Shown here in pieces: positions 6,372 through 15,459 of a DNA stretch of 64,000 nucleotides. The first letter of the stretch is position 1. Each line of letters begins with the position of its first letter. This DNA comes from a virus. Where the stretch lies: IMG/VR virus record IMGVR_UViG_3300035034_001897, positions 1 through 64,000 of that record. One strand, 5' to 3'. Under the pieces are notes generated by a model that was not told the DNA's origin, did not search any database, and was given only the letters and a program-made list of their open reading frames with translations. The position numbers were made by a program, and so were the translations under genes.

Positions 6372-6402
6372 TTGTGAGAAAGATATAAAGGTAGTATCTT
6401 TA
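6372..6402 (+). promoter_or_regulatory. Phage promoter, TTG-N20-TATCTTTA
   Basis: TTG at 6372-6374 and TATCTTTA at 6395-6402, spacer 20. Spacer text GAGAAAGATATAAAGGTAG is shared with the copies at 12032 and 35384. AAAGATA and TATCTTT form a dyad around the -7 box. Drives the gene at 6438 and the downstream run. Confidence 0.8.
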
Positions 6403-12024: not shown

Positions 12025-12096
12025 TTAAATGTTGTCAGAAAGATATAAAGGTACTACCTTTATATCATAAGGAAATAGTAATAGTACAACATTTAA
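12025..12096 (+). promoter_or_regulatory. Phage promoter with 12-bp perfect dyad (operator-like)
   Basis: TTG at 12032-12034, 20-base spacer, TACCTTTA at 12055-12062. GATATAAAGGTA (12042-12053), one base, then TACCTTTATATC (12055-12066) is a perfect 12-1-12 palindrome covering the -7 box. A second perfect inverted repeat, TTAAATGTTGT (12025-12035) and ACAACATTTAA (12086-12096), brackets the promoter. It stands before a 38-residue gene and the structured RNA region. Confidence 0.8.
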
Positions 12097-12108: not shown

Positions 12109-12225
12109 ATGACACCAACACAAGTAGAAATCGCAACAGCAGTAACGATAGCAGTAGTATTAATCGTAATTTTCATCAAGTTCGGAGGACTGAGCGGTGG
12201 AGCACGAAACGCAATATTCAGATAA
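12109..12225 (+). CDS. Single-TM micropeptide
   Basis: 38 residues with one TM segment (about residues 8-25) and a Gly/Arg-rich tail. Well supported for its size: the promoter lies 47 bases upstream and AAAATCGG (12096-12103) five bases before ATG. It immediately precedes the structured RNA region, so it may be the only protein on that transcript. Confidence 0.55.
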   Translation: MTPTQVEIATAVTIAVVLIVIFIKFGGLSGGARNAIFR

Positions 12226-12229
12226 CATT

Positions 12230-13310
12230 TAAGATAGGTTACCAATCATAGTGTAGAGTCTTCTCAACCTAAAAGCACGTCTGCAAATTAGCAGAAAGAG
12301 AATCGCTAGGAGTGATTCAGAGAGGTACAGCAAACAAAAGTTCATTGACATATTGAAGTGAGAGAATGATCAAATAGGCAGTAGTCAATCTCGTACTATC
12401 TTATAGTACCAGACATTATGACAGAGCCATCGAAAGAATAGATCACTCATCTTGCGACTGGGAACGATGCGCTCGCAAGGTGTACTCTGAATCTTTCACT
12501 TCAATATAACTTAAACTACCCTACGTGTAAATGCAATAATCTCCTCTTGCCAGGATCAAAGATTTACAGTTCTTTAAGGGGCGTGCAGATAAATGTGAGT
12601 CTGTAACAAACACACTAGTGAGAGCCTTCGAGCCAATTTTCATTGGGAAGCAGTATCTAGCGAACGTATAACGGCTAGTGTGTTTTAAAATACAAGGTTT
12701 AGATCGTGGACACCTAATCAGTAGAATCGTGGCGTAACCTGAGTGAAATTAGATCTTATTAAACTTTGGTGATTCTTAGTGGAAAAGTGAAAGTAGTAGC
12801 TGAAAACCTCCGTTTCGAAAAGACGCTTGTGAAAGAATGTCCTGCTTACAATAGATTGCTGTGTGAGAACTTCAATTGGATTGAGATAGAAACGAAAGTA
12901 TTGAAGAAGTCTGTCTATCATCACTGACAGAGGGGTATAGAGTTAGCGTACGACAATAACTCTATATGCGACCGAAAAATCGATGATGTGGAATAATATG
13001 TGTGTAGCTCAGTAGGTAGAGCGCTGGTTAATACTTAGCGTCAGTGGTTCGATCCCACTCCACATTCAAATGAGGCATCGTTATGCAAAACTATTGTGAA
13101 GTTCCGTGATAAGTATCTTGAGGGTTGAGTGCACATACCGATAATAGAGAAAGTGGAACAGAACTGTAAGAAAGGAACAGTCTTTCAGTTCGTTGAAAGT
13201 AGAACGATGCTAAAGAATTGCTTTATAGAGTGGCGTAATCAACTCTTGCAGTGGTGTAGGTAGGGAAGGAGATGTTTCCTCAATTAAATTCCCTAACTTC
13301 ACGCCAAACA
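12230..13310 (+). ncRNA. Large structured non-coding RNA region
   Basis: About 1.08 kb with no credible gene. It is packed with perfect inverted repeats: 7 bp at 12300/12312, 12 bp at 12350-12361/12496-12507 enclosing hairpins at 12393/12403 and 12451/12473, 7 bp at 12526/12562, 11 bp at 12608-12618/12675-12685, 10 bp at 12936-12945/12957-12966, 6 bp at 13161/13186 and 13231/13301 with 7 bp at 13261/13289 inside. It also holds a tRNA-like cloverleaf at 12985-13066. GCATCGTT (13075-13082) can pair with AACGATGC at 13203 or in the loop at 12463. Size, phage setting and tRNA association recall the GOLLD and ROOL large ornate RNAs; class membership is not tested. It may be one RNA or several. Confidence 0.7.
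12985..13066 (+). tRNA. tRNA-like cloverleaf, probably not a normal tRNA
   Basis: D-arm GCTC-AGTAGGTA-GAGC (13007-13022), anticodon arm GCTGG-TTAATAC-TTAGC (13023-13039, two G-T pairs, anticodon AAT at 13030-13032) and a perfect T-arm AGTGG-TTCGATC-CCACT (13043-13059) are present. The acceptor is odd: GATGTGG (12985-12991) pairs with CCACATT (13060-13066) only if 13 extra bases sit before position 8; the alternative ATGTG (12998-13002) gives five pairs. Base 26 seems missing, the variable loop is three bases, and no CCA follows. It looks like a decayed tRNA or tRNA mimic inside the larger RNA. Confidence 0.5.
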
Positions 13311-13318
13311 ATAATATT

Positions 13319-13567
13319 ATGAAAAAGTTAATTTTTATATTACTAACAATATGCTGCATAAGTGTGCAAGCTCAGAGTAAGAAGGTTGTGATGACTATGG
13401 AGATCACTATACAAAGTGATAATCAATGTAAGTTAGATACTACTAAAGTGATTAAGAACATAAAAAAGGATACTTTATCGAAAGTAGTATTGGTCAAGAT
13501 AAATGCATTAATAGCATCGAAATCTAATGACAGTATCATCAAAAGTAGTTATTACGATTTTAAATAG
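13319..13567 (+). CDS. Small secreted protein
   Basis: 82 residues with a clear Sec signal peptide (MKKLIFILLTICCISVQAQ, cleavage after AQ as is usual in Bacteroidota) and a basic mature part of about 63 residues. It follows the structured RNA with an A/T leader ending AATATTATG. Export of a phage early product to the periplasm suggests an envelope role such as superinfection control; this is inference. Confidence 0.6.
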   Translation: MKKLIFILLTICCISVQAQSKKVVMTMEITIQSDNQCKLDTTKVIKNIKKDTLSKVVLVKINALIASKSNDSIIKSSYYDFK

Positions 13568-14271: not shown

Positions 14272-15459
14272 ATGAACTTAGACGATCAAATTAGAAATAG
14301 CATTACACAAAGACGTGATGTCATTGCAGGTAACATAGTTAAAGGTAAACCATCTATGCCAATTGGAACCATTTCAAATGGTCGTAAAAAGATAGCAGAA
14401 GGTCAGTGGAGAGATGTTGTTGATGGAAACAAAAAGCCTAAACAAAACAAAGAGAAGATTAAACTCAGTGCAAAAGTGCTTGCATTAAATGAGAAACATC
14501 AACTCAGTCGATTGCCAATAGATATGCCTCATAATGAAGTGATCATCAATAAAGGTGAAGCGAAAAGTAATTGGATTCTCAAATGGATTGATCCTAAAAC
14601 ACAGAAGGCAGTTACAGCATATAGTAAAGCATTTCTCAAGAAGAATGCACAAGACAAATGGAAGCGTATAGAAAACGTATCTAAGAAAGATATCAGTGCA
14701 ATCAAGATTGGTGCAGACAAATTGATAGTAGGTAGTAATGCTGCTGAACAACAAAGTGGTGCCATAGTAAGCATCATCAGTCAAACTGGGTTGAGACCTG
14801 GAAGTAGAAGTGGTTTCAACAGCACACAAAACAGAGGAGTAAGTACACTCGCTAAAAAGAATATCAAGATTGAGGGAAGTAAAATCACTTTTGAATTCAA
14901 AGGTAAATCGTACAAGAACAACACTGCTGAGATAAATGATAGTGTATTAGCTAACTATCTCAGTGAAAGAATGAGTAAGGTTAAAGGAGAAGACTCCTTC
15001 ATATTCAATACTACAATTAACAAGGTAAGAGATGACTTTAAAGATAGTATCACACCAAATGATTCTATCAAACTCAAAGATATGCGAACATACATAGCAA
15101 CTGACATTGCGAGAGATATGTTAATGCACAATAAATTTGAAGTGCCTCAAAAAGGTGCAAAGAAAGCAATACAAGGTAAGTTGATGGAAGTATTTAAAGC
15201 TGTAAGTAATCAGCTGAACAATAGTCCTACAATGGCTAAAACAAGCTATATTCATCCTAACGTAATCAATGAATGGCTAGAAGGTTTAGGTGTGAAAGAA
15301 GCAGATATGTTTATGATGAAAGCTGTCAATTACACTGAGGCATTAAAAGCAATGAAACTTAGAAGAGACCCTGACAATATTGAGGGGGACGATAACGAAG
15401 ATTTTGACGATATTGATGAATATAATCTACCAGATTGGTGGGACCCAACATTACAATAA
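14272..15459 (+). CDS. Topoisomerase IB-like enzyme with N-terminal tag
   Basis: 395 residues. Type IB topoisomerases nick one strand through a tyrosine and relax supercoils. The catalytic set is visible: R175 in QTGLRPGS, K212 in FEFKGKS, R272 in LKDMRTYIAT and Y326 in MAKTSYIHP, in the correct order. The first 50 residues carry the tag shared with four or five other proteins here (QIRNSITQRRD...IVKGKPSMPIGTISNGRKK...GQW). The tail is acidic (residues 365-395). Virion delivery is an inference from the tag; a purely intracellular role in replication or packaging is equally possible. Confidence 0.85.
   Translation: MNLDDQIRNSITQRRDVIAGNIVKGKPSMPIGTISNGRKKIAEGQWRDVVDGNKKPKQNKEKIKLSAKVLALNEKHQLSRLPIDMPHNEVIINKGEAKSNWILKWIDPKTQKAVTAYSKAFLKKNAQDKWKRIENVSKKDISAIKIGADKLIVGSNAAEQQSGAIVSIISQTGLRPGSRSGFNSTQNRGVSTLAKKNIKIEGSKITFEFKGKSYKNNTAEINDSVLANYLSERMSKVKGEDSFIFNTTINKVRDDFKDSITPNDSIKLKDMRTYIATDIARDMLMHNKFEVPQKGAKKAIQGKLMEVFKAVSNQLNNSPTMAKTSYIHPNVINEWLEGLGVKEADMFMMKAVNYTEALKAMKLRRDPDNIEGDDNEDFDDIDEYNLPDWWDPTLQ

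Follow-up and report, generated by a model that had tools for sequence, protein, structure and literature searches.

The gene-free region at 12226-13318 of the phage DNA analysed here (the window, 64,000 nucleotides that make up most of a phage record of 78,946 bases) most plausibly constitutes an untranslated operon of stable RNAs in a Bacteroidota phage. It is a composite RNA operon whose conserved portion is a single pseudoknot module of about 80 nt, which, judged from sequence, appears to represent a so far undescribed class of phage RNA, while a new mechanism is not proven. Given its anatomy and position, the module looks like a cis-acting element of tRNA transcripts, and its most likely role would be to process or protect the tRNA transcripts of phages in cis. 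The features of the operon are the following:

12033 to 12066, plus strand: phage promoter, presumably of Bacteroidota type, TTG-N20-TANNTTTA, with the dyad GATATAAAGGTAcTAcCTTTATATC; six copies in the genome.
12109 to 12225, plus strand: 38-codon ORF for a hydrophobic, membrane-type peptide, the first after the promoter and carrying the shared promoter leader.
12226 to 13318: untranslated gap without a protein gene; the next gene starts at 13319.
12338 to 12355, plus strand: boxA-like antitermination signal AAGTTCATTGACATATTG, with the 16-mer GTTCATTGACATATTG at 12340-12355.
12350 to 12507, plus strand: 16-bp stem (12350-12365/12492-12507) with two hairpins inside; z -4.15, 0 of 200 shuffles.
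12608 to 12685, plus strand: perfect 11-bp stem AAACACACTAG/CTAGTGTGTTT; z -1.0, no homologues found.
12907 to 12987, plus strand: the conserved pseudoknot element, core finding of this work, identified by covariance model and covariation.
12910 to 12931, plus strand: hairpin A, TCTGTC/GACAGA with loop TATCATCACT.
12932 to 12935, plus strand: conserved GGGG, part of the search pattern.
12936 to 12966, plus strand: hairpin B, TATAGAGTTA/TAACTCTATA.
12967 to 12979, plus strand: conserved single strand TGCGACCGAAAAA, part of the search pattern.
12982 to 12987, plus strand: GATGAT, forming the pseudoknot with ATCATC of loop A (12917-12922).
12997 to 13067, plus strand: atypical tRNA-like gene with anticodon AAU (ARAGORN; Rfam RF00005, 31.7 bits).
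13252 to 13305, plus strand: long hairpin ending the operon ahead of the gene at 13319; z -2.24.

All three helices of the element covary strongly. In helices A and B together 91.7% of the cells are paired against 61.6% in shuffles, 38 cells carry double changes against 12.4, and the covariation score is 0.757 against 0.227 (0 of 500 shuffles); sliding the helix partners by 1-3 columns lowers the pairing to 28-49%, with a sharp loss already at one column. The pseudoknot strands read ATCATC/GATGAT in the window, GCATGGT/ACCATGC in L263, GGTTA/TAACC in L293 and CGCCT/AGGCG in L186, and members form on average 5.8 Watson-Crick pairs with their own tail vs. 3.8 with the tails of other members, a fit that 0 of 20,000 permutations of the tails among members could reach. 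A leave-one-out covariance model built on the 14 other members found the window at 12907-13002 (51.1 bits, E 7e-13), the sole match in 448 kb, and the scores were bimodal, with members at 45-74 bits and other sequences merely holding the search motif at no more than 24 bits. The cores of most members, when the pseudoknot is left out, fold no better than shuffles. The preliminary description of this DNA had proposed a structured RNA of unknown class and named covariation among homologues as support; the 15 members, in which helices A, B and the pseudoknot covary, support a structured non-coding RNA near a tRNA.

The search was seeded with the string GAGGGG-hairpin-TGCGACCGAAAA, common to the window and to the related phage G006. 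Pattern scans of IMG/VR separated chance matches, mostly inside ORFs, from non-coding matches beside tRNA genes, and resulted in 15 distinct members, i.e., the window and 14 other distinct phage contigs (L053, L057, L178, L184, L186, L220, L242, L263, L291, L293, L294, L297, L382 and L394; L260, L282 and L333 are duplicates of members). Phages that carry it beside tRNA genes are numerous and unrelated to one another. The family shares the layout AG, hairpin A, GGGG, hairpin B and UGYRACCGAAAAA, and then a 3′ strand that base-pairs with loop A; the modelled fold would be an H-type pseudoknot (helix A, and loop A with the downstream strand) carrying a second hairpin and an A-rich third loop. Since GGGG and the 12-nt string UGCGACCGAAAA sat in the search patterns, their conservation is partly imposed; the only features untouched by this selection are the helices, the pseudoknot, the tRNA association and the mostly conserved AG that precedes helix A. 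Relaxed patterns gave, among the matches listed, only the variants UGU (L297) and UGCA (L382, L394). The copy in G006 (L034:5937-6026) keeps the motif letters, its helix A cannot form and it scores 18-22 bits. When the strict pattern was run on 84,980 bacterial and archaeal species genomes, 116 matches were obtained, nearly all in long ORFs and none of them a member; within the IMG/VR and prokaryote genome scans the element turned up in phages only.

The association with tRNAs is strand-specific: in the 14 contigs with tRNAs, ARAGORN placed 42 of them on the strand of the element and 0 on the opposite one. The element begins 1-3 nt past a tRNA 3′ end in 7 of the 15 members, the window not being among them. 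In L184, L220, L263, L291, L293 and L294 the distance from a tRNA T-loop to the downstream helix A is 22-25 nt, and L178 looks alike by eye, so that the tRNA ends 1-3 nt ahead of the helix, usually with AG between. A device cutting tRNA 3′ ends fits less well the remaining eight members, window included, as no tRNA end is found directly upstream of them. The element closely precedes a tRNA in the window, L394, L053 and L297, while L382 showed no tRNA within the stretch examined; in L293 the order is one tRNA, element, hairpin and small ORF. Some phage tRNAs of these contigs are unusual in themselves: at 3520-3710 of L053 (minus strand) a tRNA-Leu is apparently split by an insert holding a complete tRNA-like sequence, further tRNAs with long inserts occur in the same contig, and others, missed by ARAGORN, are present in L220, L291 and L178.

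In the window, the tRNA-like gene at 12997-13067 directly follows the pseudoknot element. It is weak (31.7 bits vs. a Rfam gathering score of 29) and its acceptor stem is irregular; together with the rRNA-type boxA at 12340, it had been overlooked in the preliminary description, which had mentioned the location of GOLLD and ROOL near phage tRNA genes, a trait that this gene gives to the region. An alternative acceptor strand, GATGTGG (12985-12991), pairs with CCACATT (13060-13066), and since it overlaps the pseudoknot strand the tRNA acceptor fold and the pseudoknot could be competing folds, possibly a switch. Neither ARAGORN nor Rfam RF00023 matched a tmRNA in the window.

The rest of the region was examined for coding capacity and stability. 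The longest ORFs that can be drawn mechanically in 12226-13318 measure 68 aa on the minus and 53 aa on the plus strand, in agreement with the earlier claim that it holds no credible protein frame, and the nested stems previously named are present (12350-12361/12496-12507, 12393-12399/12403-12409, 12451-12457/12473-12479 and 13261-13267/13289-13295). An excess of structure over shuffled sequence, also at issue there, was recovered for perfect inverted repeats, with 18 of at least 7 bp vs. 11.0 in dinucleotide shuffles (7 of 200 shuffles), 7 of at least 8 bp vs. 2.8 (6 of 200) and 3 of at least 10 bp vs. 0.2 (0 of 200), but not for the global folding energy of 12330-13310, which is ordinary (z -0.81, 4 of 20 shuffles equally good). 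The excess stability is local and concentrated in 12338-12512 (z -4.15, 0 of 200 shuffles); z values of about -2 characterize the 5′ leader, the new element (-2.1), 13070-13215 and the last 3′ hairpin (-2.24), and the stability of 12700-12810 is below that of its shuffles (z +1.95).

The dyad ahead of the region (12042-12063) had been regarded as its own promoter. The dyad sequence is real, but not exclusive to the RNA region, because the 79-kb genome has six copies of it and the 38-codon ORF, which we infer to be a gene, lies directly behind it. The copies of GATATAAAGGTAGTATCTTTAT lie ahead of genes, at positions 6382, 12042, 18484 and 35372 (the latter on the minus strand) of the window and at 2710 and 13050 of L043, and several are followed by a common leader AAAATCGGAAAT ahead of the start codon. 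We take the sequence at 12033-12066 to be a promoter on the model of the -33/-7 promoters of Bacteroidota.

The boxA-like signal runs straight into the 16-bp stem and is fused to it; boxA followed by a stem is a layout known from rRNA leaders, and the arrangement in the window is similar. The 16-mer GTTCATTGACATATTG occurs once in the genome of the phage and has 10 exact matches in 6 of 80 Bacteroidota genomes (reversed control, 0), 7 of which follow 16S, tRNA-Ile and tRNA-Ala, in the spacer of rRNA operons, one just ahead of a 23S-like start and two, unplaced, at contig ends. We read the 16-mer as the rRNA boxA of Bacteroidota, in keeping with a Bacteroidota host. Its identity with the boxA of rRNA operons, the Nus antitermination signal of Bacteroidota type, suggests that it probably recruits host Nus factors against Rho, by which RNA polymerase would not be stopped in the untranslated stretch. 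Unlike the rRNA operon signal, the window copy stands in a phage tRNA operon and is fused to a 16-bp stem; a phage tRNA operon is here equipped with a signal identical to the rRNA antitermination signal of the host.

The genome encodes portal, capsid, lysozyme and tail-spike proteins. By DNA similarity, the whole region had no match among 50,697 phage records and a short query matched tRNAs only, and no close relatives were found through the neighbouring proteins. Relatives of the major capsid protein exist in IMG/VR at 64-81% identity, none of them holding a full homologue of the region. In the relatives G002 and G006 a gene-free stretch of about 1 kb contains a tmRNA and tRNAs; their phage-encoded tmRNAs (L031 11985-12275, minus strand, and L034 6105-6455, plus strand, respectively) lie behind a boxA-like motif, the related GTTCATT(G/A)A. 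An apparently gene-free region at 86.5 kb of G001 was discarded, being an ORF that runs off the record.

As to known RNA classes, the preliminary description had thought of one large ornate RNA (GOLLD, ROOL or HEARO), a proposal that did not survive: up to E 5 the Rfam match is tRNA RF00005 alone, and no 1.1-kb homologue exists among the sequences searched. Its further suggestion that the class might be new is supported, as the check with Rfam models gave only tRNA; neither the window element nor the other members tested matched any family of Rfam 15, HDV-like models, put and EAR included. Theta ribozymes, a minimal form of the HDV-like type, are located at the 3′ ends of phage tRNAs (PMC10879173). 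The element resembles them as a pseudoknotted RNA shorter than 100 nt that phages carry next to tRNAs without encoded CCA, and in a tRNA association that is not observed in bacterial genomes (PMC10879173). The 5′ border lies within 5 nt of a tRNA 3′ end, as in tRNA-associated theta ribozymes, in 7 of the 15 members and not in the window. It differs in lacking P3, the hairpin that would separate the pseudoknot strand from the 3′ strand of the first helix, in starting with a U-A pair after AG where theta has G at the cleavage site, and in its extra hairpin B, its long conserved UGYRACCGAAAAA and the lack of a Rfam HDV-like match. The missing P3 hairpin and the missing G at the cleavage site are the reasons why it is not filed under theta; with the 3′ arm of helix A following the loop-A pseudoknot strand after just a few nt, a nested double pseudoknot with P3 between the P2 5′ and P1 3′ strands is absent. 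GOLLD and ROOL are likewise phage non-coding RNAs near tRNA genes (PMC12286853), whereas the element measures about 80 nt vs. several hundred, has other conserved sequence and no Rfam match. Hammerhead-, pistol-, hatchet-, twister- and RNase P-like readings were weighed by eye and dropped, Rfam support being absent. A type-P5 twister ribozyme (Rfam, 51.8 bits) was seen in L220 at 892-943, on the opposite strand and about 12.8 kb from the element. The antitermination RNAs put (HK022) and EAR are small structured RNAs with a cis effect on a long transcript, as the element would have; compared from general knowledge, the element has another sequence, another topology and the association with tRNA ends. 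It is called new among phage tRNA-associated RNAs only, since the search covered open papers, and large computational surveys of the RNAs of phages may contain unnamed copies; its motif letters appeared in no paper among the top matches of an open-literature text search, in which the second term swamped the query.

The element probably helps to cut or protect tRNAs. Acting in cis, it would set or shield the RNA end beside a tRNA within the polycistronic tRNA transcript, most likely through scission in or close to the conserved AG|U at its 5′ border; by this cut tRNAs without encoded CCA would obtain their 3′ end, and in the window the long leader would be separated from the downstream tRNA-like unit. 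For such cis-acting end formation next to tRNA with scission at or near AG|U, self-cleaving or nuclease-guided, we consider the case evenly poised. A cut made there by the RNA itself, as a small ribozyme, is a tentative proposal, and one made by a nuclease recognising the pseudoknot is fairly unlikely; that the element represents a new class of small self-cleaving ribozymes, with a fold unrelated to HDV and theta and setting tRNA ends in phage arrays, seems somewhat doubtful. Theta ribozymes are the nearest functional precedent for tRNA-end ribozymes in phages (PMC10879173). They are the one recent answer, known mainly from gut phages, to the maturation of phage tRNAs from arrays, often without CCA; the element occupies the same place with a different covarying fold, in phages from several metagenomes, and as a compact RNA it is directly testable.

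Other explanations were weighed against this cis-acting role. A processive antitermination RNA, put- or EAR-like, would fold while the transcript is being made, bind RNA polymerase and promote read-through of the untranslated tRNA array, in line with the constant location on the tRNA strand, the single copy per contig searched, the untranslated transcripts and the boxA antitermination signal that the window already has; nonetheless in several members the element follows the first tRNA or comes late in the array (L293), such a function does not require the element to abut tRNA 3′ ends exactly, as it does in 7 of 15 members, and the put and EAR families of Rfam give no match, so that we regard it as decidedly unlikely. 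An equally low probability is given to a passive exonuclease block, an end-protecting pseudoknot that stabilises tRNA precursors: the compact H-type fold with its A-rich third loop and the location at tRNA borders would suit it, whereas the long conserved single strands, although imposed by the search, suggest a more specific core.

That the window holds the remnants of a decaying tRNA/tmRNA cluster of the G002 and G006 type, in which a boxA-like signal precedes tmRNA and tRNAs in both genomes, agrees with the weak tRNA of the window (31.7 bits) and appears very unlikely, as the window element is intact, with the highest structural score of the set, and the boxA stem is stable (z -4.15). Highly improbable is also that the 1.1 kb form one large ornate RNA, GOLLD- or ROOL-like, with the element as one of its domains. 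Local structure across much of the region, the tRNA inside it, as contained in some GOLLD RNAs (PMC12286853), and the outer hairpins around the element in L057 and L242 speak for it; against it, Rfam gives no match, the global folding energy is ordinary, the words widely common around the element in other phages are tRNA T-arms only, and in L293 and L184 the element sits between a tRNA and other genes.

A further observation concerns the proteins of these phages. A segment close to the N-terminus, KGK..PVGTI(S/K)..RK...G.W, is common to several otherwise unrelated phage proteins, among them a topoisomerase I of eukaryotic type, a phrog_1250-domain protein and the products of small ORFs, encoded at 14341, 17124, 18609 and 19029 of the window and at 2827 of L043, and also in G002 and G006. 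The segment may serve as a propeptide that targets proteins to the capsid and is cleaved by the head protease.
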